Notes under the pieces: model-generated
The model's database searches: none
What the model saw: only the letters and a program-made list of their open reading frames with translations
Told to the model about the DNA's origin: nothing
Source: Terrimicrobiaceae bacterium
GTDB taxonomy: Bacteria > Verrucomicrobiota > Verrucomicrobiia > Chthoniobacterales > JAATET01
NCBI GenBank assembly: GCA_028713285.1
Contig: JAQTOP010000022.1
Location: forward strand, 1-42,571
Reading direction: 5' to 3'
DNA: 42,571 nucleotides
Position numbers and translations under genes: made by a program
Part shown: piece by piece, positions 2,241 through 27,049 of the stretch
How the letters are laid out: every line of letters starts with the position of its first letter
Numbering within the stretch: the first letter of the stretch is position 1

Positions 2241-3005
2241 TCAATTTGCCAGCGGCGCGGGAGTCGGCGGAGGATTGAGGGGAATCGTGGGCTCGACGCG
2301 AAACTGGCCGAGGCGGCGAAGGTAGGCCTCCTCCATGAGGTCGCACTTCACCTTCAACTTGGCGTCGATGGACGTCATTTTCGCGAAGAGCAGACGGAAA
2401 TACGCGCGCATGGCCTGGCGCTTGCCCTCGTCCGTCTTCGCCGCCTCGGCCTGCTCGTGCAGACTGCGAATGGCCTCGTCCTTGAGGGCCAGAAGCTTCA
2501 CTTCCTGGTAACGCACGGCGAGCTTGCGATCGACGTCGAACTTGTTTTCCGCGACCTTCGGCGGAGCGGGCGGTACGCCCTCGGCGCCCGGCGGACCCTG
2601 CGGAATCAAGTTGTCGGGATTCGGCAAATCACTCGGAGCCGCCTCGCCCGACGGGAGACTTTCGTCCTTGGATTCAACTGGAGCGCCGAGGCTGGAGTCG
2701 GTCGGCTCGGGCAGATAATCCGCATCCGACTTGCCGGCAGGCGATGGTGAGGGAGCCGAGGCACTCCCCGGCGCGATTGATTCCTTCGCTTCCGGCGTGG
2801 CGGCGGAAGAGGCATCCGCTTTAGCAGGCGCAGTGGGTGCCGGAGAGGCGGCGGGAGCAGGAGTGCTCGCGACGGTGGATTTGAGGGCGGGCGAAGCGGG
2901 AACGGGCGTCGGTGTGGGCGAGGAGGCCGGTTTCTCCTGTGCCATCGCCGGCTGCGCAAGCGCGAGCAGGGGGGCGATGGTGAGCGGGAGCAGGCGGTTC
3001 TTCAT
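2241..3005 (-). CDS. Secreted Pro/Ala/Ser-rich protein of unknown function
   Basis: A 254-residue protein I do not recognise. Residues 1-22 are a signal peptide ending QPAMA. About 130 residues of low-complexity Pro/Ala/Ser linker follow, with no cysteines. A compact charged, mostly helical C-terminal region then spans roughly residues 150-235 (ENKFDVDRKLAVRYQEVKLL onward), rich in Lys, Glu and Leu, and the last 20 residues are again proline-rich. The build suggests a periplasmic or surface protein whose helical domain stands off from the membrane on a flexible stalk. ATG 3005 directly precedes the signal peptide. It is divergent from pabB, with a 75-base shared upstream region. Confidence 0.6.
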   Translation of the reverse strand: MKNRLLPLTIAPLLALAQPAMAQEKPASSPTPTPVPASPALKSTVASTPAPAASPAPTAPAKADASSAATPEAKESIAPGSASAPSPSPAGKSDADYLPEPTDSSLGAPVESKDESLPSGEAAPSDLPNPDNLIPQGPPGAEGVPPAPPKVAENKFDVDRKLAVRYQEVKLLALKDEAIRSLHEQAEAAKTDEGKRQAMRAYFRLLFAKMTSIDAKLKVKCDLMEEAYLRRLGQFRVEPTIPLNPPPTPAPLAN

Positions 3006-3080
3006 GTATCGCGGAAAGGCGGCAGGCGACTCGGACTTGCAAACGAAACAGGTTTATTCTGTCTTGGCAAGTCGTCAGCC

Positions 3081-4343
3081 ATGGCCAGCCGAGCACACCA
3101 GTTTCGCGAGATCGCGCTCCCGCTGAGTCCGGCGGAAGCGGCGGCGGGGCTTGCCGACCGGGAGGGCATGGTTTTTCTGGATTCGGCGGTCGAGTCGCCG
3201 GGCGCGCTGTCGATCCTCGCTTGCGAACCGGAAAAAATCCTCGAAGGCACGGCGGCGGACTGGCCCGGACTCCAGCGCGAGATCGAGGCGCGAGCGAGCA
3301 CGGGCGGCGATCTGGGGCTCCCGCACGGCGCGGCCATCGGCTGGTTCGCATACGACGGCTCGTTTCGCTTCGGCATGTATCCCGACCTGCTGGCCTACGT
3401 GCACGGGGAGGAGCGCTGGCTGGCCTTTGGCAATCCGCGCCTGCCCGGAGCCGTTCCCGAACATCCCGCGGAGCGCACGGATTTCCGTCCCGACCTCTCG
3501 CGGGAGGATTATTGTGCAATGGTCCGCCGCGCGCAGGATTACATCGCGGCGGGCGACATTTACCAGGTGTGCCTCGCGCATCGTTTTCGCACCGAGTGGC
3601 GCGGGGCGGCGTGGCCGTTCTACGAGGCGCTGCGGCACTACTCGCCGGCGCCGCACGCCGCCTGCCTCACCCTCGGCGATACGACTGTCCTCTCGGCTTC
3701 GCCGGAACGTTTCCTGAGCCTGAGCGGGCGGAGCCTGCTCACGCGCCCGATCAAGGGCACCCGCCCGCGCCGCGCCGACGGCGATGCGGACGAGCGCTCG
3801 GCTTACGATTTGATCACCTCGCAGAAGGAAATCGCCGAGCTGGTGATGATCACCGATCTCGAGCGCAACGACCTCGGCCGCGTGTGCGAATACGGCTGCG
3901 TGCGCGTCGCCGACCTTTTGAAGCTCGAGCGGTTCGAGCAGGTCTTCCACCTCGTCTCGACCGTCGAGGGCACGCTGCGGCCGGGCGTTTCGCACCTCGA
4001 AGCGATTGCCGCCTGCTTCCCGGGCGGCTCGATCTCGGGCGCGCCGAAAAAGCGGGCGCGGGAAATCATCGCGGAACTCGAACCGGCCCCGCGCGGCATC
4101 TACACGGGAGCCATCGGCTTCCTCGGCTTCAACGGCGAGAGCCGCTTCAATATCGCCATTCGCTCGGTGATCGTGCGCGGGAACGAGGCGACGTTTCATG
4201 TCGGCGCGGGCATCGTGGCGGATTCCGTCCCGGAGCAGGAATGGATCGAGACGCTCGACAAGGCGTCGGGCATCCTGCTCGCGGCTGCACGCATGCCGGT
4301 GGATGCCCATCCGCGAGTCACCGCGGACGAGCGCGAAGCGTAG
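3081..4343 (+). CDS. pabB: Aminodeoxychorismate synthase component I
   Basis: A 420-residue chorismate-binding enzyme for p-aminobenzoate and folate synthesis. PIKGT (223-227) carries Lys225, equivalent to the active-site nucleophile lysine that separates PabB from anthranilate synthase TrpE, where this residue is usually Ala. Further signatures are MITDLERNDLGRV (256-268), FPGGSISGAPK (313-323) and FNIAIRS (356-362), all needed for Mg-chorismate binding. The length fits a stand-alone component I; no glutamine amidotransferase partner (PabA) or lyase (PabC) lies beside it. ATG 3081 has no clear ribosome-binding site. The gene converges with the Mla lipoprotein gene, leaving nine bases between the stops. 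Confidence 0.92.
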   Translation: MASRAHQFREIALPLSPAEAAAGLADREGMVFLDSAVESPGALSILACEPEKILEGTAADWPGLQREIEARASTGGDLGLPHGAAIGWFAYDGSFRFGMYPDLLAYVHGEERWLAFGNPRLPGAVPEHPAERTDFRPDLSREDYCAMVRRAQDYIAAGDIYQVCLAHRFRTEWRGAAWPFYEALRHYSPAPHAACLTLGDTTVLSASPERFLSLSGRSLLTRPIKGTRPRRADGDADERSAYDLITSQKEIAELVMITDLERNDLGRVCEYGCVRVADLLKLERFEQVFHLVSTVEGTLRPGVSHLEAIAACFPGGSISGAPKKRAREIIAELEPAPRGIYTGAIGFLGFNGESRFNIAIRSVIVRGNEATFHVGAGIVADSVPEQEWIETLDKASGILLAAARMPVDAHPRVTADEREA

Positions 4344-4352
4344 GAGATTTCC

Positions 4353-4970
4353 TCACCCGTGGAGCTGGCCGAGCGCGCGGAGCAGCTCGTTCAACTCGAC
4401 GCGCAGCGCCTCGTTCCATGCGGCCACCAGCGCGGCGGGAGTGCGGCTGGCGACGGGCACGGATTGCGTGAACATCCTGCGCAGCGCGATCACGCTGCCC
4501 TTGTCCGTTCGCCGGAAGACCTGGACCTCCATCGTGAGGACGGCTTGCGGGGCCGTGGGATTGCGGAAATCGCCGTAGAGCGCGGTGAGATTGCAATCGA
4601 TGGAGATGTCCTGCCCGCCGCCCGCGCCAGGCTCGGCGACCTCGCCGTAGAGTCCAGACTCGCGCGTCCAATTCCGCAAGATCGACGTCATCATGTCCGC
4701 CGGCGAGACGAGAAACTGGTTGTAGGGATCGACCTCCCAGCGGCCGGCGCTCAATTGATACACAAATCCGTCCGAGGCGAAGGGCGCAGCCACATCGACG
4801 AAGCCCACGGACGCGGTCGCTGACGAGTTCGCCGGCCGCAGCGCGCGCAGGGACGCGGGCTTCCCGGGATCGAGCGCAAAATACTCCGGCTTCGGCCGGG
4901 GACAGAATGAGGAGCAGGCCGCGAGCATCGCGACAAGCAGGGCGAGCGAAAGGGGCGCGGCGCGGGTCAC
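4353..4970 (-). CDS. Mla-type ABC transport auxiliary lipoprotein (PqiC/DUF330-like)
   Basis: A 205-residue outer-membrane or periplasmic lipoprotein of the ABC-type transport auxiliary family (PqiC-like, PF03886). A signal peptide ends in the lipobox LAAC with Cys19 as lipidation site. EYFALDPGKPA shortly after matches the YFLLDP start of the family domain. The start is a GTG at 4970-4968 that overlaps the mlaD stop as GTGA, so translation is probably coupled. It is the last gene of the mlaE-mlaF-mlaD cluster. It likely helps bridge the MCE protein to the outer membrane during phospholipid transport; this follows from family and context rather than sequence alone. Confidence 0.85.
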   Translation of the reverse strand: MTRAAPLSLALLVAMLAACSSFCPRPKPEYFALDPGKPASLRALRPANSSATASVGFVDVAAPFASDGFVYQLSAGRWEVDPYNQFLVSPADMMTSILRNWTRESGLYGEVAEPGAGGGQDISIDCNLTALYGDFRNPTAPQAVLTMEVQVFRRTDKGSVIALRRMFTQSVPVASRTPAALVAAWNEALRVELNELLRALGQLHG

Positions 4971-5929
4971 GGTTTGCGAGGGGGTTTTGCCGGAGGCTCC
5001 ATCACCTTCGAGGGCCTCGGCGGCTTGCTGAAAATGATCCTGGATGGATCGCGGGAAATCTCGGCGCTGGCTGCGCGGAGGTTCTCGGAAATGATGCGCA
5101 GGTTCGCCAGCGTGGCGGCGATGTCGTCGGCGTTCAGGCGCGAGGCGGGTTCGACGTTGCCGAGGATCGTCCGCAACTGATCGTTCGATTTTTGCACCTC
5201 GTTGAGCAGGGCGCGCGTGTCGGCGCTCAATTCCTTGACCTTCGCGTCATCGACGGCCTTCGACACGGTGCCAAAGAGCTTCTGCGCGTCGGCGCTCAAT
5301 TTCTCGAGCTGCGCGCCGGTCACGACATCGTTGAGATTTTTGAGCAGCTTCTGCGTGTCCTCGCTGATGCCTTTGATGTTCAGATTCTCGACCTCCTTCA
5401 TCATCTTGTTGACCGAGTCGAGCAGGTTGGTGAGTTCGCCCGGGGCGTAGGGCAGGAAGTAATTGCGCGGCTTCCAGTTGATCTTGAGCGGCTGGAAGCG
5501 CGACTGATCGAGGTAATTGATCTCCATGTAATTCAATCCCGTGATGCCCTGCGGCTCGATCTGCACGCGCAGGCCGCGCGCGATGCTCCGGTCGAGCTGG
5601 ACCTGGAGATTATCGACCTTGAACATGTCGGGGAAGATCTCCTTGTCGAGTTCCATGAGGATCACGACGTAGTTCGCCACGGTCGAGCGATCCACCTCCG
5701 GATATTCGGTGAACAGAAATCCGATGCTGCTCACCTTGCCCACCGTCACGCCGCGAAATTTCACCGGCGATCCGACCTCGATTCCCTGCACCGTCGCGTC
5801 CACGTAGGTCTCGATCCGGATCTTCTCCTTGAAGAACTGCCCGATGCCAAAAATGATCAGCGCTCCCGCGAGCAGCAGAAGGCCGGCGATGATGAATACG
5901 CCGATGCGGAAATAACTCGCCTCCTTCAC
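4967..5929 (-). CDS. mlaD: MCE-domain lipid transporter subunit MlaD
   Basis: A 320-residue MCE protein, the periplasmic substrate-binding ring of an Mla-type phospholipid ABC transporter. One N-terminal membrane helix (about residues 8-28) anchors it. The MCE domain follows at about 38-140, with VQGIEVGSPVKFRGVTVGKV as its conserved core. From about 170 to the end the protein is a long heptad-rich helical tail (repeated LSADAQKL and LSADTRAL units), longer than E. coli MlaD and closer to actinobacterial or PqiB-like MCE proteins with extended needles. The start is GTG 5929, overlapping the upstream ATPase stop as GTGA, with a strong GAGGAGG site five bases ahead. The frame open to 6565 is a shadow. 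Confidence 0.92.
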   Translation of the reverse strand: MKEASYFRIGVFIIAGLLLLAGALIIFGIGQFFKEKIRIETYVDATVQGIEVGSPVKFRGVTVGKVSSIGFLFTEYPEVDRSTVANYVVILMELDKEIFPDMFKVDNLQVQLDRSIARGLRVQIEPQGITGLNYMEINYLDQSRFQPLKINWKPRNYFLPYAPGELTNLLDSVNKMMKEVENLNIKGISEDTQKLLKNLNDVVTGAQLEKLSADAQKLFGTVSKAVDDAKVKELSADTRALLNEVQKSNDQLRTILGNVEPASRLNADDIAATLANLRIISENLRAASAEISRDPSRIIFSKPPRPSKVMEPPAKPPRKP

Positions 5930-6702
5930 GCGGCCTCCTCCTTTGCTTCGCGGTGAAAGAACTGTCGCACGAACGGCTCCGTCGAATGATCGCGCAATTC
6001 CTCCGGCGCGCCCTCGGCGATGATTCCCTTTCGTTCCTTGTCGAGCATGATCACACGGTCCGCCACCGCGTAGATACTGGCCAGCTCGTGGGTGACAATC
6101 ACGAATGTCATTTCCATGTCCTCGTTCAGCCGCAGGATGAGGGCGTCCAGCCCGGCGGAGGTCACCGGATCGAGGCCGGCGGACGGCTCGTCGAGAAATA
6201 CCACCGCCGGATCGAGAGCCATCGCCCGCGCAATCGCCGCGCGCTTCTGCATGCCTCCGCTCAGTTCGCTCGGCAGTTTTGAGATCGAGTTTTCCAGCCC
6301 GACGAGGCGCAGCTTCATCCACGCGACCAGCTCCAGCGCCTCCTCGGGAAGGTCCGTGTATTCCTCCAGCGGCAGGCGCACGTTTTCGCCCAGCGTCATC
6401 GAACCAAACAGCGCGCCGCTTTGATACGACACGCCGATCCGCTTGAGAATCGCCTGCCGCTCCGCACCCTCGGCCGCCACGAGGTCGCGCCCCTCGATGC
6501 GCACCGCGCCCGCCATCGGCGGATACAGCCCGATGAGATGCTTGAGCAGCGTGCTTTTCCCGCAACCCGATCCGCCGAGGATCACGAACACCTCGCCGCG
6601 GCGCACGTCGAACGACACGTTCTCGAGGATCGCCTCGCCGGCGTAGCCCGCCGTGAGCTCGCGCACCTCGATGATGTTCGAGCTGTCAGAATTTGATGGC
6701 AT
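5926..6702 (-). CDS. mlaF: Mla-type ABC transporter ATP-binding protein
   Basis: A 258-residue ABC ATPase of the MlaF/Ttg2A type that powers phospholipid movement through MlaE and MlaD. Walker A is GGSGCGKST (43-51), the Q-loop region is near 93, the signature LSGGM is at 147-151, Walker B VVFLDEP at 167-173, and the H-loop VTHE follows. LSGGMQKRAAIARA is typical of the Mkl/Mla branch. ATG 6702 gives a 17-base overlap with mlaE; an earlier in-frame start at 6726 would reach further into mlaE and adds no conserved residues. Confidence 0.93.
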   Translation of the reverse strand: MPSNSDSSNIIEVRELTAGYAGEAILENVSFDVRRGEVFVILGGSGCGKSTLLKHLIGLYPPMAGAVRIEGRDLVAAEGAERQAILKRIGVSYQSGALFGSMTLGENVRLPLEEYTDLPEEALELVAWMKLRLVGLENSISKLPSELSGGMQKRAAIARAMALDPAVVFLDEPSAGLDPVTSAGLDALILRLNEDMEMTFVIVTHELASIYAVADRVIMLDKERKGIIAEGAPEELRDHSTEPFVRQFFHREAKEEAA

Positions 6703-7792
6703 AAAAAACGACCGCGAAAATCGCATCGACCAGGATGATTAAAAAGATGCCGCTCACGACGGCGCGCGTCGTCGATTCGCCCACCGCGCTTGCGCCCGAC
6801 TTCGTCTGCAGCCCGCGCAGGCAGCCGATGCCGCCGACGAGCGCGCCGAAGAAGAACGATTTGATGAGCCCGGCGAATACGTCGTGCAGCGTCACCGCCG
6901 ACACGAGCTGGTTGTAAACCGCCGCCCATGGATGGCCAAAAAACATCACCACCATCAGGCCTCCCGAGATGCCGATGACGTTCGCATAGATCGTGAGCAG
7001 CGGCGTCACGAGAATCGCCGCCATCAGCTTCGGCACCACGAGAAATCGCACGGGATCGAGCCCCATCGTCGTGAGGGCATCCACCTCCTCGTTCACCTTC
7101 ATCGTGCCAATCTCCGCCGCGAACGACGAGCCCGAACGGCCCGCGAGCACGATGGCCGTCATGATGCCGCCCAGCTCGCGCAACATCGCGAGCGCCACAA
7201 GATTCACGACGAAAATATCCACGCCGAATTGCTGGAGCGGCACCGTGGATTGGAAGGCCATGATCATGCCGGTGAGAAATCCGATCATGCCCACAATCAC
7301 GAGCGCGTTCACACCCGCCGTCTCGACCGTATGCCACATCTCGCCCCAGCGCACCCGGCGGGGATTTGCCATGCCGGCCGCGAGCGCCACCGCCGCCTGC
7401 CCGGTGAAAACAAGTTGGTCGCGCACATCCCGCGCCATGCCGACTCCGATGCGCCCGAGCGCCACCGCCGCCGGCTCGCGATCGAGCGTCCGTCCGCCGA
7501 GCGTGGGGAATTCCACTTCCGCATACGGTTTCAACAACCCCGACGCCTCGGCCGGCAGCCCCTCGATCTTTGCGCCGCGCGCGTTTTCGAGTTTGTAAAA
7601 AAGCGCGGCGCCCGCCGAGTCGCAATACGTCACGCCCGATGCATCGACGGTCGCGCCCTTGCCGGCGGCGCGCACGGCGCGATCCCACACCGTCGCGGCG
7701 TTCTCCGCATCCAGCCGGCCCTTCAGCACAATCCGCGTGCCGGAATCCGACCGCTCGACGGCGACCTCGGCAGATTCGGGCTCTACAGGCAT
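6686..7792 (-). CDS. mlaE: Mla-type permease with N-terminal STAS domain
   Basis: A 368-residue inner-membrane permease. Residues 1-105 form a STAS-like domain (RIVLKGRLDAENAATVWDR and CDSAGAALFYKL), a role played by separate MlaB in E. coli, so a fused MlaB-like module is present. The MlaE permease fold runs from about 115 to the end, with several membrane helices and the conserved ELGGIMTAIVLAGRSGSSFAAEIG stretch (written here only in part as a marker: GRSGSSFAAEIGTMKVNEE). ATG 7792 begins the STAS domain; the frame is open further upstream without homology. It starts 41 bases after the methyltransferase gene and is probably co-transcribed with it. Confidence 0.92.
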   Translation of the reverse strand: MPVEPESAEVAVERSDSGTRIVLKGRLDAENAATVWDRAVRAAGKGATVDASGVTYCDSAGAALFYKLENARGAKIEGLPAEASGLLKPYAEVEFPTLGGRTLDREPAAVALGRIGVGMARDVRDQLVFTGQAAVALAAGMANPRRVRWGEMWHTVETAGVNALVIVGMIGFLTGMIMAFQSTVPLQQFGVDIFVVNLVALAMLRELGGIMTAIVLAGRSGSSFAAEIGTMKVNEEVDALTTMGLDPVRFLVVPKLMAAILVTPLLTIYANVIGISGGLMVVMFFGHPWAAVYNQLVSAVTLHDVFAGLIKSFFFGALVGGIGCLRGLQTKSGASAVGESTTRAVVSGIFLIILVDAIFAVVFYAIKF

Positions 7793-11565: not shown

Positions 11566-11641
11566 CGCGGCATTCCTAACGCGCGCCCCGGACAGCCTCA
11601 ACCTCCAACCGCCCGCACGCACCAGGGTCGGATTGAAAATG

Positions 11642-11714
11642 TGGGGGCACTCGGATTTGAACCGAGAACCAACCAGTTATGAGCCGGCTGCTCTAACCAT
11701 TGAGCTATACCCCC
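11642..11714 (-). tRNA. tRNA with anticodon CAU (Ile2 or elongator Met)
   Basis: A complete 73-base cloverleaf on the minus strand. The acceptor pairs GGGGGTA with TGCCCCC (one G-U pair). The D arm is GCTC/GAGC, the anticodon stem GCCGG/CTGGT surrounds loop CTCATAA, and the T arm CTCGG/CCGAG surrounds TTCAAAT. The discriminator is A and no CCA is encoded. Anticodon CAU belongs to initiator Met, elongator Met or the Ile2 tRNA that needs lysidine. The strong pairing at the top of the acceptor excludes an initiator. The TTAGAGCAG and TTGGT stretches resemble tRNA-Ile2, which I favour. Confidence 0.93.
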
Positions 11715-17088: not shown

Positions 17089-17709
17089 TCAAATATTAGC
17101 GCAGCGGTGCTGTTCCCGACAGCGATCAGCACGTCTGCGCCGTCCACGCCATAGATGCCAGCACAATCCGCCCAGGCCGATCAGCATGAGGACGCCGGTC
17201 GTCGGCTCGGGAACGACGGTCAATGTGAAACTGGAAGGGATATAGGGAATCGACTGGTTCGAGCTACCCCGTAAATCCTGGGAGGCAGAATTCTGAGCGA
17301 CGAAGGACACTGTGTAACTCCCCGTCGCCATTGTGCCAATCGTTGTCAGGTTGATCTGCACGAGCGTGGATGTCCCCGTGAGATCCGTGCCTGAAATATT
17401 CCCCGCGCCATACTTTCGGGTCGGCGCATCGGATAAGGAAATCCATCCAGTGGGCACCGTATCCGTAAAGCTGCTGATGGTGGTCCCCATCGGTAAAACC
17501 GCCAACTGCAAGTCGAAATTGTCCAAAGCCGGTGAGCTAAGCCCACTGACTTGGACGTTCAAAGAGAAACTCTGCCCGGGCGTGATCGTGAGGCTGGAAA
17601 GTCCGGTTCCCGCATCAAGCAGACGCAAGAGCACCTGCGCCTGACCGGTTCCTAGCGCCGCGAGCAAGGAGATGCCCGCCACTCCCATGATTTTCCTAAT
17701 TATTTTCAT
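17089..17709 (-). CDS. PEP-CTERM protein with cohesin-like ectodomain
   Basis: A 206-residue surface protein. A signal peptide covers residues 1-24 (ending GTGQA). Residues about 25-165 form an all-beta domain with a cohesin-like pattern: LTITPGQSFSLNVQVSGL (40-57), then FDLQLAVLP (65-73) where cohesins have a FDLxLxYDP strand, and later LVQINLTTIG and SYTVSFVA strands. VPEP (166-169), a hydrophobic stretch (171-187) and RGRRRR form the PEP-CTERM sorting signal read by exosortase. Unusually, 13 more residues follow the basic cluster. It starts 23 bases after a dockerin-protein gene, with a GGAAGGG site. The cohesin assignment is my inference from the strand pattern; the sorting signal is clear. 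Confidence 0.8.
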   Translation of the reverse strand: MKIIRKIMGVAGISLLAALGTGQAQVLLRLLDAGTGLSSLTITPGQSFSLNVQVSGLSSPALDNFDLQLAVLPMGTTISSFTDTVPTGWISLSDAPTRKYGAGNISGTDLTGTSTLVQINLTTIGTMATGSYTVSFVAQNSASQDLRGSSNQSIPYIPSSFTLTVVPEPTTGVLMLIGLGGLCWHLWRGRRRRADRCREQHRCANI

Positions 17710-17732
17710 TTTACCCTTCCCCAGGAATCCAT

Positions 17733-20700
17733 TCAAGGAACCTGCCTCCCGTAGTTGTCCCTGATCGTGGTGATGTCCGCGGCATTCACCGCGCCATCGC
17801 CATTCAAATCTGCGCGGGGGTCAAAGCCCGCATCCCCCGCGAGTTTGCCATAGCTGTTGCGGATCCAGGTCAAGTCCGCCGCGTTGACCACGCCGTCTCC
17901 GCTCACATCGCCCTGCAAAATGCGCAATTTGACTGCTGCATTTGCAAGCACGGCTCCCGATGGGTTCGTTACGTTGCTCGCGGTGACGGTCAGCGTTTGC
18001 TGGCTGGCGACCCCGGTCAGGTTAACCGTCATCGTGGCGCCGCTGATCGCGATCGAGTTTACGGCGCCCGTCCCAACCGTCACGAGCGCGCTGCCCGACG
18101 CGATATTCTGGTCAAAAGTCAATACCACCTGATAAAGGCCGTTCACGCCTCCATAGCGACACTCGACACCGGACGGGTCGATCAGTGGAGCGCTGATATC
18201 GTAAATGATCCCTCCCTGATTCCTCCGCGAAACCACGCTCAGTAATCCCGGTCCCTTCACGACATTGGCTCCCTGGCTAAGATTGACATAGGTGCCCGTG
18301 TTCGCTGTGAACAAGCGCGAGGCGCGCACCATATAAACTGCATTACCCAATGGAGCCGGATCCGTCCAGTTGGTTCCGGTCACGAGATTTCCGTTATTCA
18401 GAAGGGTCAGGACAGTATTGGGCGCCGTGCCCCGGTAGATGTAATAACCCTGGAATCCCGGAGCCGCACTGTCGGCCGACGCCGTCCAGGACAGCGTGGC
18501 GTTGCCGATGCCGCCCGTGGTCAGAGCCGTCGGTGGGGCCACCATATCCTGCCTGAGAGTCGGATCACCCATCAGGCCGAATTGGGTGGTCGGGTTCGTG
18601 GGTATCCCGTTCAAGATGTAAGTGTGCTGCGATTCATCCGTCTGGGCCAACCCGGCCGCCGTCTGAACATGAGTGATGCCATTGGTCTGCGAGAGGCGCA
18701 TGCCCTCACCGAGGGTGCCTCCCATGCCCATGGGATGCATGAAACAATTCGGCAGATTGTAGCATGAGCCGAGAGTCCTGCCGGATGCCGCCAGAAAGGA
18801 ACGGAGCAGATTGTTCGGGCTGTCCCAATCTCCAAAGCCGCTGCCGCACGCCATCGTGAACACCGCCCGGCACCCCAACTGGGCCAGAACCGTTGAATTC
18901 GCTATGCCGAGGCAATCGTTAAATGCTCCGTAGCCCCCTCCACCAGCCCAAAGGAAATCCTGGCTGGCGAGGAGTTGACTCTGCAAGCTGGCCACGCCGG
19001 TTTGGGTATTCATGAAAGCCGAGACGTTCGCCACCCCGACATTGGCGCTCGCCGCCCGCAGAATGCCGACGGGAAGGGTGAAGGTCCCGCTTGCCACATT
19101 AAAGCCGTCTCCAACCGCCGCGCGACGCGGGACGGTGAATTGCGCCTGCCGCCATTGGTGATTGCGGTTAAGATATTGCTTGAGCAGTCGCACCTCCGCC
19201 GCCCCAGCGGTTTCGCCAGCCTGCGTGAAGACGGGCAGATTATACATGTCGATGCGTCCGACCTGTAGATCGATCGGCGCGGGTAAAACACTCTGATCGA
19301 ACTTTCCGTCGCCGGGAATGTTCTTATTCCAGGTCTGTGAACCAAAGCTGTTCGTGTAGTTCGAACTATCGGTCCATGTGCCCGTCATGTCGCCGTAGTA
19401 GGTGTCAGCGGCCCACGCACCCGTATGATTGCCATGACCGTCGGGACTAATATCTCCGGAATAGGGCACCGGCACATGTCCAAGCAGGATTACCGCATCG
19501 ACGGTGGGATCGTTCTGGTAATCGGTCTTGATCAGTGATTTTACGTTCACGACAGCGGAGGCGTAGCCTGCGGTATCCACATTTACGTCACTGACGGCAT
19601 GCTCCCGCACGATCCATCCGTCGCCGTTCAGATCGCTTTTCAATGTGGCGATCTCATTGGCCAACGATGCCGCGACGCCCGACTCCTCCATTAGCACAAC
19701 TGTGCCCCGGATGTGCTTTGGCGGAACATTAATGCCCGCCCAGCAAAAGCCGTAATTCATAGCATTGAGAGTCGAACCAGTCTGCCGCCGCACCATGTAT
19801 TCATACATCGTCCCGGCCACGACGCCGGTATCCGTCCAGGTTGTCGCCGTAGCCGGAAGGTTCGGGGTGGAGGTGAGGTATGTCCACGTTGCGCCTCCGG
19901 GAAGCTTGCGATAGATGCCCACCCAGACGCTGGCGCTCTCCGAAGCGGCAGGCCAGTTGAGCGTGATGCCGGGGGGACTGGTCGTGACTGTCGCGCTTAC
20001 ACCGATTCCCGAATCACTCTGCGCAACCGCGCCGCGACTAAGCCCAAAGCCTTCGGGCAGTGTAGGAATTGCCTGAGCCACCGGCTGACGCTGGAGAGCG
20101 CCCAGCGCGGGAAACGTCCCCGGATCGCTGTTCCAGAGGCGGACCATGTCATAATCCACGCTGACGGGTGTATTAAAAGTGCCCGCCGCCGTCCAGGAAT
20201 CCAACCCCCATTGGCCGGTTGGCAACGGCGAAGCTCCAATGGCCGCCGCGCTGGCGTAAAAGGTCTGCATGCCCAGCAGGTTCCCCTGGCCCATGATGCT
20301 GGAAGAGGTATCGATCTCCCCCGTACCCGCCACGCCGAAGACCTTCATCGTGATCAACCCCGTCGCAGGGTTGGTGTTAAACGTGACTCCCATGTGCGCC
20401 ACAGTACCCGGGGTTCCAAACGGACCGCGCATGTAGCCCAGTCCAGTCCCGCCCGTGGGAGGCAAAGTCAAACTGAATGTATCGCTTTTTGTAAACGAGG
20501 CGGCTGTGCTGCCAACACCTGAAGCGGAGCCAGTTACGACATGCAATTGAAGCGCCTCGGAGGTGTTTCCATTAAAAATCAGGCGCATCCCGGTGGTTCC
20601 CGAAATAGTGGATATGTCGAGCCGCGGGAACCACGCGGAAACATATTTCTCGACAGAATTCGGGCAGATAAAGAAGTCGAATCCGCCGTTCAAGGTCACG

Positions 20701-21032
20701 TAAGCCGTGCCGCCGATCGTGACCGTTCCGGCCAACGCCGCCCAGGAGTTAGCCGGACTCGCAGGGTTGTATTTCACTATATTGACGGCTCCATTTCCCA
20801 TGGGCGCCGCTTCATTAATGTAGCTGCCGCTGCCGGATGCAAATGGGCTCCCGCTCTGGATCGAACCCGTCGCAGGAAGGCTCCTGGTCCCACCCGTTAC
20901 GGATACGCCATCATCCTGGAAAATGAGAGCCGCCTCCGCAGCCGAAAGGCTTAGCAAGAGCACGGCGCTCAAACAGGCTGGAAACAAATGGTGGAGAAAT
21001 TGTTTGTCGGTTCGGATTTGTGATGGATTCAT
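17733..21032 (-). CDS. Secreted dockerin protein with gingipain (C25)-like centre
   Basis: A 1099-residue secreted protein. Signal peptide about 1-35; beta-sandwich-like N-module about 36-310, shared with the two upstream genes; FN3-like domain about 345-435; C25-like region about 440-830; second FN3-like domain about 835-920; Ig-like domain about 935-1040; type I dockerin 1041-1099 with two calcium loops (D-x-S/N-x-D-G-x-V-N-x-x-D). C25 features are VDAVILLGHVPVP (511-523), MACGSG with Cys729 at the gingipain nucleophile position, and MGDPTLR (821-827). The GHG motif that carries the catalytic His in gingipains is replaced by GGGG (697-700), so peptidase activity is doubtful. ATG 21032 sits 49 bases after the preceding gene. 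Confidence 0.85.
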   Translation of the reverse strand: MNPSQIRTDKQFLHHLFPACLSAVLLLSLSAAEAALIFQDDGVSVTGGTRSLPATGSIQSGSPFASGSGSYINEAAPMGNGAVNIVKYNPASPANSWAALAGTVTIGGTAYVTLNGGFDFFICPNSVEKYVSAWFPRLDISTISGTTGMRLIFNGNTSEALQLHVVTGSASGVGSTAASFTKSDTFSLTLPPTGGTGLGYMRGPFGTPGTVAHMGVTFNTNPATGLITMKVFGVAGTGEIDTSSSIMGQGNLLGMQTFYASAAAIGASPLPTGQWGLDSWTAAGTFNTPVSVDYDMVRLWNSDPGTFPALGALQRQPVAQAIPTLPEGFGLSRGAVAQSDSGIGVSATVTTSPPGITLNWPAASESASVWVGIYRKLPGGATWTYLTSTPNLPATATTWTDTGVVAGTMYEYMVRRQTGSTLNAMNYGFCWAGINVPPKHIRGTVVLMEESGVAASLANEIATLKSDLNGDGWIVREHAVSDVNVDTAGYASAVVNVKSLIKTDYQNDPTVDAVILLGHVPVPYSGDISPDGHGNHTGAWAADTYYGDMTGTWTDSSNYTNSFGSQTWNKNIPGDGKFDQSVLPAPIDLQVGRIDMYNLPVFTQAGETAGAAEVRLLKQYLNRNHQWRQAQFTVPRRAAVGDGFNVASGTFTLPVGILRAASANVGVANVSAFMNTQTGVASLQSQLLASQDFLWAGGGGYGAFNDCLGIANSTVLAQLGCRAVFTMACGSGFGDWDSPNNLLRSFLAASGRTLGSCYNLPNCFMHPMGMGGTLGEGMRLSQTNGITHVQTAAGLAQTDESQHTYILNGIPTNPTTQFGLMGDPTLRQDMVAPPTALTTGGIGNATLSWTASADSAAPGFQGYYIYRGTAPNTVLTLLNNGNLVTGTNWTDPAPLGNAVYMVRASRLFTANTGTYVNLSQGANVVKGPGLLSVVSRRNQGGIIYDISAPLIDPSGVECRYGGVNGLYQVVLTFDQNIASGSALVTVGTGAVNSIAISGATMTVNLTGVASQQTLTVTASNVTNPSGAVLANAAVKLRILQGDVSGDGVVNAADLTWIRNSYGKLAGDAGFDPRADLNGDGAVNAADITTIRDNYGRQVP
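17736..18240 (-). repeat. Ig-like plus dockerin module, copy 1
   Basis: C-terminal cassette of the C25-like protein gene. It is clearly homologous in DNA to 21085-21590 and 24773-25272. It encodes an Ig-like domain containing VVLTFDQNIASG and a 59-residue type I dockerin. Confidence 0.85.
20110..20930 (-). repeat. N-terminal beta-sandwich-like module, copy 1
   Basis: Encodes about 275 residues running from LIFQDD to LWNSDPGTFP. The same module occurs at 23640-24492 and 26172-26985. It resembles LamG/concanavalin-type beta-sandwiches in composition and strand rhythm, but I cannot name the family. Shared landmarks are NSWAAL, LNGGFD-FV, GMRLIFNG, VTFNTNPATG and VDYDxVRLxNSDPG. Confidence 0.75.
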
Positions 21033-21081
21033 GCTTGAGATTGGGAAAATGTCTCGAGTTTCGGCTGCATGTATTGTCGAT

Positions 21082-24000
21082 TCACGGAACCTGCCTCCCG
21101 TAATTATCCTTGATGGTGGTGATGTCCGCGGCGTTCACCGCGCCATCGGCGTTCAAGTCGGCCCGCGGGTCGAAGCCGGCGTGCCCCGCGATCGTGCCAT
21201 AGCTATTGCGCACGCCGGTCAGGTCCGCCGCATTGACCACCCCGTCCCCATTCACATCGCCCTGCAACACGCGCAGCTTGAACGCCGCGCTCGCCAGGCT
21301 CTGGCCCGCGGCATTCGTCACATTGCTGGCCGTCAGGGTCAATGCCTGCTGGTTGGACACCCCGCTCAAGGTCGCTGTCATCGTCGCACCATTGATCGCC
21401 GTCGCACTCACGCTGCCCGCTCCCGCAGTCACCGCCACGGCGCCCGACGCGATATTCTGGTCGAAGGTTAATACCACTTGGTAGCCATTAATTATCGCCC
21501 CATAGCGGCACTCGACTCCAGCGGGGTCGGTCAGCGGCAGGCTCGTGTCGCAATCGACTCCTCCCTGATTCTTCCGCGAGGAGGCTCCGGCGAGTTGCGG
21601 CGGGAGGGCCGGCAGATTTCCGCTCCAGTCCACGCTCTTGACTACTCCGGTGGCCGGATCGGTGATCGTCAGCACTTTGTTGACCAGCGTCACCAGGGGA
21701 TGGGTCGCGTCCAGCCGCGCGTCGATGTCCGGCCACGGGTCCGAGAGGTCGGGCGCCCCGTTGACCGAGACGCTCGGAAACATCCTCACCCTGCCTTGAC
21801 TGTCAGACGTCAGGTTGGTGTCGTAGCTCGCACTCAGTGTCACGTTTTGTGAATTCGTATATTGGACGCTCAACGATGGCATTGTGCCAGATCCCCACGC
21901 CACGCTCGGCTGGCGCGGTGTCAATGCCGCCTTGAAGGCCGCGAAATCGGCAAACTGCCCGCCGCTCGCCGTGCTCGTTCCTATCTCCACCACGAAGCCC
22001 GTTTGCGAACGGCCACCGTGCGGCACCGCGGTCGCGAAGAGGCTTTTCCAGACGCCTGCGTAATCCTGCGGAGCCCCGGGGGCGGTCAGAGTGCGGATGC
22101 CGATGTATGTGTTTCCTTCGTGGAGGAAATACCAGGTCGTTCCATCGGCGTTGGCCACGGCGTCGGTTTCATCCATCGAGAGCGGATAGCGCATCGCACA
22201 CTCGGTGCGCAGCGCGTTCGCATGCTCGCTGCGGCGAATTTGAGGTGGATTGAGTGTGCGATCGGTAAAGTAAAAGTCCGGACGCCCGGGGGAGGAGTTC
22301 GGCCAGGGGTCGGTCGATGGGATATTGAACATTATGATGGCCGTGTTCTTATAATGGGCCACCTGCATGAACGGCGAGTGCGGGGCCTGCCACCAATTCA
22401 GCCCTGACTCGTCGGCCAGCCAGTAGGGATGCCCTGCCTGAATATATTGCAAACGATCCGTCGAACGGTAAGCGATGCCAAATCTGCTGCCATCCTGGAT
22501 ATGCGTGGTATTTGGAACATAATAGCCAACCATCGATCCGACGGCGAATTCCCTGTCGCGCCACACGCGCCTGCGCAATGCATCGTTCACCCGCGCATCG
22601 TAGGCTCCACCGACAGCCCAGATCGGCTCGGACGTCAGAACCCAATGCGCCTTCCCGGCATTGTCGCTTGCGAGATTGGCGATGCGATCCAACGCCGCCG
22701 GAGGGCGGTAAGACGAAAGGGCGGGATAAACTGTGAAGAGACAGTCTCCCCAGTTGGTCATCCGTGCCGCCTCGGGCCTGCATTGATTCCAATAAAGCCA
22801 GTTTAGAAGCACGGTGTCGTTCTTGTTGCCGTCATCGACGCCAGGGCCGATTCCGCCATTGGTATAGACGGAATTGTAAAAGCGCGGATACGGATCAAGA
22901 ATATATCCGCGATAGACGTTCACTGAAAGGTGAGCTAATATATGGGTAATAATGCCTTCGGCGATGCGCTTGACCTCGGGATCCTGCGCAAACTCATAGA
23001 GATTTAGCATGGGGATCAGGTGGGCCGGAATGTAATTTGGCGAGGAAGCTTCGGAGAATGAGCGGTCGAAACGCAGGCTTCCCTGCCGGCGCAATTCCTC
23101 CTTGTTGTGCGACATTAGCACGAGTGAGCTCACTCGCGCGGTTCCTAATGGGAGATCCGGCCTGTCGGACCGCTTGGGATTTGGATAGTCCGGAAGCCAC
23201 GTGGCCGCGGGAAATTTTTGCGCCAGAAGGTATCCGTTGGAAAGCCTCATCAAATGGTGGTTTTCTGTGCCGCCTCCATACCAAAAATACATCCGTTGGG
23301 TATCCGTCGCCACCTGCGCAAGCTGCGCCGGAGAAAAACGGTCGCCGAATTGGTAAATGGCGCGCACAACTCCCAAGGGAAAAAACTCGGATCCCTGTAG
23401 TTGTTCAAAAGTCGTCAATACGGACAGATTGCTGGCTGTGTAACTAACGGCGTTGTTGGAGTTCGCCGAACCGGCCGGGAACTTGTAAAGATTCGCCAGA
23501 TTATATGCCATTCCGAAGTGGGCCGCCGGGGTTGGCGCGGGCCATTCCAGGCCGAGGAGCCATTTCTTGCGGGAATCGAAAGAACTCCAATCGGGTGGGG
23601 TCGGAGGAACTGGCGGGAAAATTCCCGGAACACCGAAACTCCCAGGATCGCTGTTGTAGAGGCGAACCGAATCATAATCCACGCTGGTATTGGCAGTGAA
23701 GGAAGCGCCGTTTGCCGATCTTTCCGTCATCGTCCACGCGCCTGTCGGGAGGGTGATGGCTCCGATTGCGTCGGCGCTGGCGTAAAAGGACTGCCTGGCC
23801 AGCAGATTGCCCGCTCCGACGGTGTCCGAGCTGGTGTCGATGGCATTGGTGCCAGCGGCCCCGAAGACCTTCACCGTGATCTGGCCTGTAGCGGGATTGG
23901 TTTTGAAGGTGACTCCCAGATGAGTGATCGCCCCCGTCGTAAATTGATTTGGAGTGCCGGTAATTGCGCCCGGTAGAATCCAGGTATCGTTTGTCGTGAA

Positions 24001-24675
24001 GGCCCCCGGCAGAGACCCCAGGCCCGCGCCCGCCCCGGTTTTGAATTCGAATTGAACGCCGCCACTGCTAATGCCATTGAAGATCAGACGCGCGCCCGAG
24101 GGCCCTGAAATCGTTGTAATATCCACCGGGCGAAACCACGGTGCACCCGCTTCGCCGGAGATCGGACGGACAAAGATGTCGAAGGCGCCGTTCAAGTTCA
24201 GGTAGTTGATACCGCCCGTGTTGATCGGAGTTGCGACCAAAGCCGCCCATGAGTTGGCAGCCGTCGTCGGTGTGAAGGTGACGATGGTCTTGGCGCCGGT
24301 TGTCCCGGAGGCCACCGAACTGTTTACGTAATTGCCGGCGACGGCACTAAATGGACTCGCACTGCCGATAGTATTGGTCACGTTGGGCGCCGTGCCGCCC
24401 GGCCCGAGCGCCCCCATTCCGCCAATAGCGCCTATATCTCCCGCGCCAGCGGTTCCAGATCGGGTGCCGCTGAAATCAGCCTGAAAGATCGGGACGGCCA
24501 TCGCGCCAGCTGGAAGGAAGGCAATCGCCGCCTGGAGGGCCACGCCCGGCCAGCAACTTCCTATCAGCCGCGGCGCATCCTTTTCAGGGCGGGGACGGAA
24601 ACGATCTCCGGTTTCCATTCCGGTAGGAGTCGCCCGATTTCGCGAGCGGCTTGTGGTTATTTGCTGGTGGTTCAT
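21082..24675 (-). CDS. Secreted dockerin protein with toroid lyase-like centre
   Basis: A 1197-residue protein. A charged leader precedes a hydrophobic segment (about 37-60, ending GAMA), so export is likely; an alternative start is ATG 24618. The shared beta-sandwich-like N-module spans about 61-350. The centre, about 360-1025, is helix-rich and Trp/Tyr-rich with GGGTENHHLMRLSNGYLL (467-484) and SSPNYIPAHLIPMLNLYEFA (544-563), then a beta-rich part. This order recalls alpha/alpha-toroid polysaccharide lyases with a C-terminal beta-sandwich (heparinase and alginate-lyase types). Asn472, His473 and His474 are candidate active-site residues. Ig-like domain about 1030-1138 and dockerin 1139-1197 close the protein. 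The family assignment of the centre is tentative; substrate unknown. Confidence 0.8.
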   Translation of the reverse strand: MNHQQITTSRSRNRATPTGMETGDRFRPRPEKDAPRLIGSCWPGVALQAAIAFLPAGAMAVPIFQADFSGTRSGTAGAGDIGAIGGMGALGPGGTAPNVTNTIGSASPFSAVAGNYVNSSVASGTTGAKTIVTFTPTTAANSWAALVATPINTGGINYLNLNGAFDIFVRPISGEAGAPWFRPVDITTISGPSGARLIFNGISSGGVQFEFKTGAGAGLGSLPGAFTTNDTWILPGAITGTPNQFTTGAITHLGVTFKTNPATGQITVKVFGAAGTNAIDTSSDTVGAGNLLARQSFYASADAIGAITLPTGAWTMTERSANGASFTANTSVDYDSVRLYNSDPGSFGVPGIFPPVPPTPPDWSSFDSRKKWLLGLEWPAPTPAAHFGMAYNLANLYKFPAGSANSNNAVSYTASNLSVLTTFEQLQGSEFFPLGVVRAIYQFGDRFSPAQLAQVATDTQRMYFWYGGGTENHHLMRLSNGYLLAQKFPAATWLPDYPNPKRSDRPDLPLGTARVSSLVLMSHNKEELRRQGSLRFDRSFSEASSPNYIPAHLIPMLNLYEFAQDPEVKRIAEGIITHILAHLSVNVYRGYILDPYPRFYNSVYTNGGIGPGVDDGNKNDTVLLNWLYWNQCRPEAARMTNWGDCLFTVYPALSSYRPPAALDRIANLASDNAGKAHWVLTSEPIWAVGGAYDARVNDALRRRVWRDREFAVGSMVGYYVPNTTHIQDGSRFGIAYRSTDRLQYIQAGHPYWLADESGLNWWQAPHSPFMQVAHYKNTAIIMFNIPSTDPWPNSSPGRPDFYFTDRTLNPPQIRRSEHANALRTECAMRYPLSMDETDAVANADGTTWYFLHEGNTYIGIRTLTAPGAPQDYAGVWKSLFATAVPHGGRSQTGFVVEIGTSTASGGQFADFAAFKAALTPRQPSVAWGSGTMPSLSVQYTNSQNVTLSASYDTNLTSDSQGRVRMFPSVSVNGAPDLSDPWPDIDARLDATHPLVTLVNKVLTITDPATGVVKSVDWSGNLPALPPQLAGASSRKNQGGVDCDTSLPLTDPAGVECRYGAIINGYQVVLTFDQNIASGAVAVTAGAGSVSATAINGATMTATLSGVSNQQALTLTASNVTNAAGQSLASAAFKLRVLQGDVNGDGVVNAADLTGVRNSYGTIAGHAGFDPRADLNADGAVNAADITTIKDNYGRQVP
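21085..21590 (-). repeat. Ig-like plus dockerin module, copy 2
   Basis: C-terminal cassette of the toroid-domain gene, homologous in DNA to 17736-18240 and 24773-25272. The two calcium loops read DVNGDGVVNAAD and DLNADGAVNAAD. Confidence 0.85.
23640..24492 (-). repeat. N-terminal beta-sandwich-like module, copy 2
   Basis: Second copy of the module also found at 20110-20930 and 26172-26985. It carries a Gly-rich insertion near its start (IGAIGGMGALGPGG) that the other copies lack. Confidence 0.75.
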
Positions 24676-24769
24676 GCCGGGGGGGAGGCCTTCGCTTTGC
24701 CTTGCGTAAACCAAACTGGAATCCGCTGATATTATGTTCGCAACATTACTCGCACTATTCCGGTTGATT

Positions 24770-27049
24770 TCAAGGAACCTGCAGGCCGTAATTGTTCCGG
24801 ATGCTGGTGATGTCCGCAGCATTCACTGCTCCGTCGCCATTCAAGTCCGCCCGCGGATCGAAGCCCGCCTGCCCGGCGGATTTGCCGTAGGCGTTTCGCA
24901 CACCGGTCAGATCCGCCGCGTTGACTGCGCCGTCTCCATTGACGTCCCCCTGCAGGACGCGCACCTTGATCGCCGCACCTGCCAGAAATTGCCCAACGGA
25001 ATTTGTGACATTGCTGGCGGTGACAACCAATGTCTGCTGGTTGGCCACGCCGCTCAAGTTCACGGTCATGGTCGCCCCATTGATCGATGTGGAACTGACG
25101 CTTCCTGTTCCTCCCGTCACTGCCGCCGTGCCCGAAATGACGTTCTGATCGAAAGTCAGAATTAGCTTATAGGTGCCGGCAACCGGGGCCCGCCCTTCGA
25201 CCGCCGCCGCGCCCGTCTGTGGCAGGCCAATATCGTAGTTTATGCCTCCCTGGACCTCGCGCGAAACTGCCGAGGCGAATGTCGGCGGCTTCGGCTGCTG
25301 ACTGACGACATCCCAAATCGTCTGCTGCATGAGCAGCATATCGGCGGGGGAAATGGCCGTATTGTTTACGAATGGGGCGGCGACGCCGTTGGCGTTCACG
25401 TCGTTGACCAGGCCCACCGGGCTTTGCCTGAAAATCGCCGCATACGCCGTCCATGCAGCGACATTCTGGCCTACGGAATTCATATGAATGCCATCGCGAT
25501 GGAGATCCCTAATGGAGGTAAAGTCCTGAAATTGCCCCGCCCGCATCTTTATATCCAACGCATTGAGAGCCTCTCCGACGGGGATCACCTCGATATTTGG
25601 ATTGGTCTGGCGCACGGCTGCGACAAGGTAGGTGAAGTAGTCGCGCGCGAGGGTGCTCGGCTGGCTGGGGATGTTTTGAATGGGAGCCAGATAAGCCGCG
25701 CTGTTGCTGTTCAGGTCGCTGTAAACCACCGTCGGCCAGGCTTCGTAGATGAAAAATCGGGTCGAAGCATTGTTGGCATTCGTCCGGGCCGCCGCGATCA
25801 TGCCATTGACGGAGGCCGTGTCGGTGGCGAGGGTGGCGGGAGCCGTGGAGTCCGGAAACGGCTCCATCGTAACGACACTCCAGGTGTTCCCGGGCAGCGC
25901 CGTGGGCCAGGGGACAAGATTGGTCGCCGGCTGGGCGGAGACGGAAGTCAATCCCACGGCCGACCGCGTGGAGATCGTGTCGTTTGGATTGTTATAAATA
26001 AAGGTGAGGCTGGTCCCCGGTCTGAAATGATATCCCCACAAGTAGTTCGTGCCCTGGGTCGCCTCGTATCTCGTGCCGACATTTCGAAAATTGATGAACA
26101 TGTCCTGGGTCAATGAGTTGCCGATATGAAATGCCGTGAAATAACCGACGAGCGGCGGCGGTGTGGCGCTCAGGCCCGGAAAAGTCCCGGGGTCGCTGTT
26201 CCATAGGCGGATCGTGTCGTAATCGACATTGGTGGCGGTGCCAAATGTAGCGCTCGGATAGGAACGAGCGGTCGGCGACCACGCTCCGGTGGGAAGCACC
26301 GACGCGCCAACGGCCGCCGCGCTGATATAGAAAGTTTGCATTCCGATCAGATTGCCAATGCCGACCAGATTGGAACTGGTATCGATCGCTCCGCCATTCG
26401 ACGCACCGAATAGCTTCATCGTGACCTGGCCCGTGCCGGGATTGGTATTGAATGTGATTCCCAGGTGCGCGACCGTTCCAGGCGTCATGGGATTCCCTGC
26501 GCCGCTGATGCTATTTGGCAAATTGAAAGAATCGTTCGTCGTAAACGAGCCAGGGGAGCTGCCCAAACCCGTCGCGGAGGCGGTCGAGATCTCGAGTTGA
26601 ATCTGGCTCCCGCCAGCCCCGTTCAAAATAAGACGCATTCCGGCGGAGGCCGTTTTGGTGGAAATATCCACCGGACGAAACCATGCGGTGCCAGCTTCAG
26701 CGGTATTGACACGAACAAAAAGATCGAACCCGCCGTTCAAGGTCACATACGTCGTGCCGCCGACGGTTACGCTCCCAGTGAGGGCCGACCAGGAGTTCGC
26801 CGGACCCGCGGGAGTGTAAGTGACGATGGTTGCGCCGGCGTCGCCGACGGCAAGCGACGACTTCAGGTAGCTCCCACTGTCGGGTGAGGCGACGAGCGGG
26901 CTCGCCGCCGTGATCGAACTCGCACTACCGAGGCTTCGAACTCCGCCGGTGATGGAACTGGCATCGTCCTCAAAGATCAGAGCGGCCCTGCCGCAGAGGG
27001 AGAGCGAAATGAAGGCGAGTGAAAAAAAGCAAAGCTTACAATGGTGCAT
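24770..27049 (-). CDS. Secreted dockerin protein with SGNH/GDSL esterase centre
   Basis: A 759-residue secreted protein, first gene of the cluster. Signal peptide about 1-22 (ending CGRA); beta-sandwich-like N-module about 23-293; SGNH hydrolase domain about 300-545; Ig-like domain about 590-700; type I dockerin 701-759. The hydrolase has HIGNSLTQ (308-315) with nucleophile Ser312 and block V RDGIHMN with Asp519 and His522, so the Ser-His-Asp set is intact. Such enzymes often remove acetyl or other ester groups from polysaccharides, which would suit the lyase-like neighbour. A near-consensus promoter lies about 40 bases upstream of ATG 27049, which has no Shine-Dalgarno sequence. The next gene starts 94 bases downstream. 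Confidence 0.88.
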   Translation of the reverse strand: MHHCKLCFFSLAFISLSLCGRAALIFEDDASSITGGVRSLGSASSITAASPLVASPDSGSYLKSSLAVGDAGATIVTYTPAGPANSWSALTGSVTVGGTTYVTLNGGFDLFVRVNTAEAGTAWFRPVDISTKTASAGMRLILNGAGGSQIQLEISTASATGLGSSPGSFTTNDSFNLPNSISGAGNPMTPGTVAHLGITFNTNPGTGQVTMKLFGASNGGAIDTSSNLVGIGNLIGMQTFYISAAAVGASVLPTGAWSPTARSYPSATFGTATNVDYDTIRLWNSDPGTFPGLSATPPPLVGYFTAFHIGNSLTQDMFINFRNVGTRYEATQGTNYLWGYHFRPGTSLTFIYNNPNDTISTRSAVGLTSVSAQPATNLVPWPTALPGNTWSVVTMEPFPDSTAPATLATDTASVNGMIAAARTNANNASTRFFIYEAWPTVVYSDLNSNSAAYLAPIQNIPSQPSTLARDYFTYLVAAVRQTNPNIEVIPVGEALNALDIKMRAGQFQDFTSIRDLHRDGIHMNSVGQNVAAWTAYAAIFRQSPVGLVNDVNANGVAAPFVNNTAISPADMLLMQQTIWDVVSQQPKPPTFASAVSREVQGGINYDIGLPQTGAAAVEGRAPVAGTYKLILTFDQNVISGTAAVTGGTGSVSSTSINGATMTVNLSGVANQQTLVVTASNVTNSVGQFLAGAAIKVRVLQGDVNGDGAVNAADLTGVRNAYGKSAGQAGFDPRADLNGDGAVNAADITSIRNNYGLQVP
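24773..25272 (-). repeat. Ig-like plus dockerin module, copy 3
   Basis: C-terminal cassette of the SGNH esterase gene, homologous in DNA to 17736-18240 and 21085-21590. The calcium loops are DVNGDGAVNAAD and DLNGDGAVNAAD. Confidence 0.85.
26172..26985 (-). repeat. N-terminal beta-sandwich-like module, copy 3
   Basis: Third copy of the module at 20110-20930 and 23640-24492. It encodes the segment from LIFEDD to LWNSDPGTFP of the SGNH esterase protein. Confidence 0.75.

Follow-up and report, generated by a model that had tools for sequence, protein, structure and literature searches.

Three large genes and one small gene lie on the minus strand of the window, by which we mean the whole 42,571-nucleotide stretch of DNA that was analysed (Table 1). 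Genes 1 to 3 combine a shared N-module, a centre of their own, and a shared tail (the C-module) made of an X-module and a dockerin. The first ATG of gene 2, a lyase-like ORF, overlaps the upstream gene; thus, its true start probably lies below 24822. Gene 4, whose product of ~206 amino acids was absent from the original prediction, has its ATG 23 bases past the stop of gene 3, preceded by the SD-like sequence GGGGAAGGG.

Table 1. Genes and modules of the cluster (window coordinates).
Feature	Position	Strand	Basis
Gene 1: N-module, SGNH-like centre, X-dockerin	24770–27049	-	ORF, 759 aa
Gene 2: N-module, large centre (predicted as a toroid), X-dockerin	21082–24822	-	ORF
Gene 3: N-module, putative C25-like centre, X-dockerin	17733–21032	-	ORF
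Gene 4: secreted protein, beta domain and PEP-CTERM tail (17137–17214); candidate cohesin/surface anchor	17089–17709	-	
N-module, gene 1	26180–26986	-	Profile match, E 3.4e-131
N-module, gene 2	23632–24498	-	Profile match
N-module, gene 3	20112–20933	-	Profile match
Centre, gene 1; sub-threshold DUF4886	25292–26167	-	Pfam search
Centre, gene 2	21601–23625	-	0 Pfam families at E ≤ 10
Centre, gene 3; naked paralogue at G000:C19:42793–44709	18258–20105	-	Sequence comparison
X + dockerin tail, gene 1	24773–25279 (dockerin 24794–24949)	-	Profile match
X + dockerin tail, gene 2	21085–21597 (dockerin 21109–21261)	-	Profile match
X + dockerin tail, gene 3	17736–18245 (dockerin 17763–17912)	-	Profile match

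The original prediction held that an N-module and an Ig-dockerin module recur three times, and profile searches recovered both in all three genes, with coordinates agreeing to within ~10 bases. Alignment of the window copies gave pairwise protein identities of 50.6–56.7% for the N-module and 67.6–71.2% for the C-module. The best segment for each pair of genes reached BLASTP E values of 3e-69 to 3e-87, and chance is therefore excluded as the source of the likeness. Four genes in the whole genome carry both the N-module and the X-dockerin tail, three in the window and one on contig C87. The C87 copy is 38–42% identical to the window copies in its N-module and 66–74% in its tail, so that identities across all four genes range over 38–57% and 66–74%, respectively.

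The dockerins of the window genes matched Dockerin_1 (PF00404) with 36.7, 38.3 and 41.1 bits and that of the C87 gene with 40.9 bits, against a gathering cut-off of 22.9. All calcium loops (8/8) were intact in these four genes under the rule that we assume for such dockerins, D-x-[NS]-x-D-G-x-V-N-x-x-D. The tail aligned across both X-module and dockerin with the cellulosomal scaffoldin X-dockerin chains 4u3s_B, 4wi0_B and 2b59_B, the last of which matched the gene 2 tail over residues 43–155; we take 2b59 to be a complex between a scaffoldin X-dockerin and a cohesin anchored at the cell surface. When the X-dockerin alignment was searched against the genome collection, it retrieved mostly general dockerins, and the best among the matches listed was 34% identical and came from a Phycisphaerae MAG. 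Within the same genome, an ORF at a contig edge (G000:C71 1–1029) joins an X-dockerin-like module to what we presume to be the end of an Rhs-type repeat.

The central domains had been predicted to be unrelated to one another, and an all-against-all BLASTP comparison at E ≤ 1e-5 indeed found no mutual similarity. Their proposed names were borne out only in part. The gene 1 centre has a sub-threshold match to DUF4886 (E 1.8e-4), which we read as SGNH-like, but the labels 'C25-like' (gene 3) and 'toroid' (gene 2) drew no support from Pfam or NCBIfam; at E ≤ 10 neither centre matched any Pfam family, Peptidase C25 included. The three centres may be catalytic. The gene 3 centre has a naked paralogue on contig C19, 36% identical over 646 amino acids, which lacks an N-module and ends where the X-module would begin. 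A cysteine in gene 3 (FTMACGSG), which we took to be the C25-type motif residue, is missing from the C19 copy (FTMLFGSY). That is, because the cysteine is not common to the two copies, the gene 3 centre, the C19 copy, or both may be without C25-type activity. The C19 paralogue adjoins three N-module/PEP-CTERM genes.

The arrangement had been attributed to domain shuffling into a fixed secretion-and-docking frame. Shuffling onto the docking tail is supported by mosaic genes, but the frame is not fixed. A search for the same shell elsewhere did return the C87 gene with a further centre, a beta-helix, but in a different order: beta-helix, then N-module, then X-dockerin. In a tree, the N-module of this gene grouped with that of an enzyme from genome G019 (100% support) and not with the window copies. 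A gene on C145 consists of a beta-helix and the start of an X-module without an N-module; its beta-helix is 49–53% identical to that of the same G019 enzyme, in which the N-module is present and the dockerin absent. Shuffling onto the docking tail is thus supported by three mosaics: the naked centre on C19, the beta-helix on C145, and the grouping of the C87 N-module. The reading frame of the C145 gene (G000:C145 1–200) departs from the family inside the X-module, near the contig end, and the gene is possibly interrupted or cut by the assembly edge.

The N-module also occurs without a dockerin, in seven PEP-CTERM-tailed ORFs of the genome (three on C19, two on C48, and two on C85, one of them partial), and it forms the C-terminus of two G019 enzymes. 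Since it is found in PEP-CTERM ORFs and in dockerin genes alike, the two tails are ends of the same module. Occurrence in unrelated contexts, which had been named as evidence against a dedicated shell, was therefore found in part for the N-module and not for the C-module. Among the four shell copies, the best N-module tree paired genes 1 and 3, whereas the best C-module tree paired genes 2 and 3; because neither data set rejected the other's best tree at the 5% level (AU 0.055 and 0.18), this contrast alone is not significant. An AlphaFold model built from the three window copies of the N-module had a pLDDT of 41.2 and a pTM of 0.46, and Foldseek returned weak lectin-like matches (CBM40, neurexin LNS, legume lectins) together with unrelated proteins, with 0 matches below 1e-3; these matches carry no weight here. 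We regard the N-module as a module in its own right, for the surface or for a ligand; that it binds carbohydrate is a guess.

We then considered gene 4 as a partner for the dockerins. Its PEP-CTERM tail (PF07589) scored 25.1 bits (E 1.7e-5) against a cut-off of 20.7; the genome holds 22 PEP-CTERM matches and exosortases at two loci (E 1.7e-44 and 5.1e-41). A paralogue of gene 4 with 51% identity stands alone on C17 (G000:C17:10964–11581), between two genes that we would name radical-SAM-like and lpxD-like. Gene 4 gave no match to Pfam Cohesin (PF00963) at E ≤ 10, a profile search found no Pfam cohesin anywhere in the genome and hence no scaffoldin with several cohesins, and a profile of gene 4 relatives found no match in the PDB at E ≤ 10. 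In hhalign against 23 cohesins of the phylum, gene 4 scored 20.4 and its paralogue 21.1, whereas the null set of 29 PEP-CTERM ectodomains, one of them itself a dockerin neighbour (G142:C9:79840), reached 17.7 at most. Gene 4 and its paralogue together aligned with the cohesins over 88 columns (P 9e-4, probability 22.7%), and in plain HMMER gene 4 ranked fourth among the 37 scored, under one null. Taking the nine-strand jelly roll of PF00963 as the fold criterion, we also modelled gene 4 with AlphaFold from its single sequence. The model was poor (pLDDT 49.5), and Foldseek matched it to cupredoxin-like, Ig-like and unrelated folds; no match fell below 1e-3, and the 50 listed included no cohesin. 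The gene 4 ectodomain reads like a cohesin, though the sequence signal is remote. The PEP-CTERM protein may be released instead of being retained at the surface.

We asked how often such a gene follows a dockerin gene in the phylum. Dockerin matches in a sample of 387 genomes comprised 83 rows in 52 genomes. We examined 67 places, namely 65 of these rows and two found only with the X-dockerin profile; the 18 rows left out were 11 from genus g47 with near-identical scores and seven others, mostly weak. An ORF was assigned to all but one of the places (66/67; G390 gave none); 15 of these were too close to a contig end, which left 51 evaluable. Dockerin genes were defined by HMM for the count, and calls by regular expression misclassified diverged dockerins. 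With PEP-CTERM tails recognised by our own motif-and-hydropathy rule and not by the Pfam model, a small same-strand PEP-CTERM gene stood directly behind 8 of the 28 genes with a C-terminal dockerin, although these eight are not independent events, a tandem pair in G142 being among them. No non-dockerin gene in the same regions had such a follower (0/184, Fisher P 3.5e-8), nor did any of those that look secreted (0/74, P 1.4e-5), and it was found behind only one of the 23 genes in which the dockerin lies further inside.

Counted by genome, the pair was present in 7 of 13 (the present genome, G142 twice in tandem, G141, G342, G385, G334 and G495). In G384, G470 and G522, three of the remaining six, a Pfam Cohesin domain is encoded by the gene behind the dockerin gene. 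The next genes in G413 and G216 look cohesin-like to the eye but have no Pfam Cohesin match, and in G524 (C449) no cohesin or PEP-CTERM gene stood behind the dockerin gene, the cohesins of that genome lying elsewhere. The PEP-CTERM neighbour was missing at 10 of the 11 evaluable dockerin genes of G141. The followers in G142 and G141 scored 12.6–14.0 in hhalign and are not clearly cohesin-like, and that in G385, with 16.5 over 13 columns, is not cohesin-like. Two single cases may be added: the G522 cohesin protein ends with a sub-threshold IPTL-CTERM signal, and in G342 (2870–7270) a protein of rhamnogalacturonan lyase family 11 ends in a dockerin and has a PEP-CTERM beta-domain gene directly behind it.

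We propose, with a probability of roughly 0.55, that the cluster is a small extracellular docking system in which gene 4 encodes a divergent cohesin, sorted by exosortase, that holds the dockerin-tailed proteins. Three proteins with different centres would be secreted, each with the common X-dockerin tail. After export, an exosortase of the genome would process the gene 4 product, which would stay at the cell surface, where its beta domain would bind the calcium-loaded dockerins and so bring different centres to one anchor. For gene 4, we infer the cohesin fold, the dockerin binding and the surface location. The dockerin protein encoded on C87 could use the same anchor, and the paralogue on C17 could serve as a second one. 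An N-module attached to a PEP-CTERM tail would be anchored directly, and one attached to an X-dockerin tail indirectly. We regard a broader version as an even bet: each anchor would keep a single cohesin-like domain, sorted by exosortase, as all that is left of the scaffold, each effector would carry an X-dockerin, a dockerin gene with a cohesin or PEP-CTERM gene behind it would form a recurring two-gene cassette of the phylum, and N-modules would switch between modes of anchoring. The genome has dockerins without a recognisable cohesin and PEP-CTERM proteins mostly of unknown role; should gene 4 prove to encode that cohesin, a single testable pair would connect the two puzzles, and adjacency to a dockerin gene could be used to locate divergent cohesins in further genomes.

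The dockerins could instead bind another partner, either an undetected cohesin or each other, with gene 4 being an unrelated, co-regulated surface protein. We judge this unlikely, but it is a serious alternative. It draws on the lack of a Pfam Cohesin match in gene 4, its weak separation in HMMER, and the followers in G142, G141 and G385 that are not clearly cohesin-like; in addition, a survey of cellulosome-displaying bacteria indicates that divergent cohesins can evade domain searches (PMC11557425). It does not sit well with the concentration of PEP-CTERM followers behind C-terminal dockerin genes and their lack behind the 184 non-dockerin genes of the same regions, or with the Pfam cohesins found at that same position in three genomes.

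The origin of the cluster was addressed by base composition and divergence. The region had been described as richer in A and T than its flanks, which holds on average (GC 0.591 for 17089–27049 against 0.649 and 0.638) but is not unique to it: 1-kb segments at 5001, 14001 and 36001 were as low as the cluster (0.571–0.588). Low GC had been read as a hint of transfer or of different selection, and a recently transferred island of foreign origin would also fit the patchy distribution of the N-module: a profile search of 213 genomes of the order detected it in four, and in none of three from the same genus. However, relatives elsewhere in the genome are lower still (0.555 for the C87 gene, 0.514 for the gene 4 paralogue on C17), and because of this low GC tracks the family and makes a weak case for transfer. 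N- or X-modules are also spread over C12, C19, C48, C71, C85, C87 and C145. Counts of synonymous changes, which the original prediction had called for, gave pS of 0.60–0.69 among the window copies (dS ~1.2–1.9) with dN of 0.20–0.41, the C-module being more constrained than the N-module. Because synonymous sites are near saturation, the copies are, judged from their sequences, old duplicates under purifying selection. A recent island is therefore improbable. Given its patchiness, the N-module was likely gained or lost somewhere in the order, though not necessarily recently.

Still less probable is that the dockerin tail is a stand-alone sorting or stabilising domain that needs no cohesin, on paralogues that are tandem duplicates with exchanged centres. 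In its favour, the genome has no Pfam cohesin, and an NCBIfam model for a 'GC-type dockerin domain-anchored protein' (NF041540) exists, matched by gene 1 with an E of only 0.2; against it, classical cohesins stand directly behind C-terminal dockerin genes in the phylum sample, and the tail resembles scaffoldin X-dockerins.

Noncellulosomal cohesins and dockerins were reportedly treated by Peer et al. in 2009. The proposed docking system resembles the type II arrangement of the cellulosome in its X-module with a C-terminal dockerin and in its candidate anchored cohesin partner. Unlike in the cellulosome, the X-dockerin is found on each effector protein and not on a scaffoldin, each anchor has a single beta domain, PEP-CTERM sorting replaces SLH or LPxTG, and Pfam and NCBIfam searches of genes 1–3 found no cellulase or cellulose-binding family except for matches falling on the dockerin. 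If gene 4 is the dock, the system may be a small and unusual cousin of the cellulosome. Among the papers searched, the nearest are the survey of cellulosome-displaying bacteria (PMC11557425) and the planctosome, a hypothetical system of peptidase complexes proposed for freshwater Planctomycetes (PMC6461901). The planctosome model likewise places cohesin-dockerin modules away from cellulose degradation; in contrast to the ~206 amino acid PEP-CTERM protein found here, its anchor is a lamin-tail-domain protein of 2,210 amino acids, and its adaptor holds both a dockerin and a cohesin (PMC6461901). With the PEP-CTERM/exosortase system (PMC1569441), the locus shares the PEP-CTERM tails of gene 4 and the N-module proteins and the exosortases of the genome. 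A literature search, outside which most subscription papers lay, found no work joining PEP-CTERM with dockerins, with or without cohesins; exosortase and cohesin occurred together only in a review on ANME, whose passages on them are separate. Elsewhere in the window, a tRNA-Met gene (cat) lies on the minus strand at 11641–11714.
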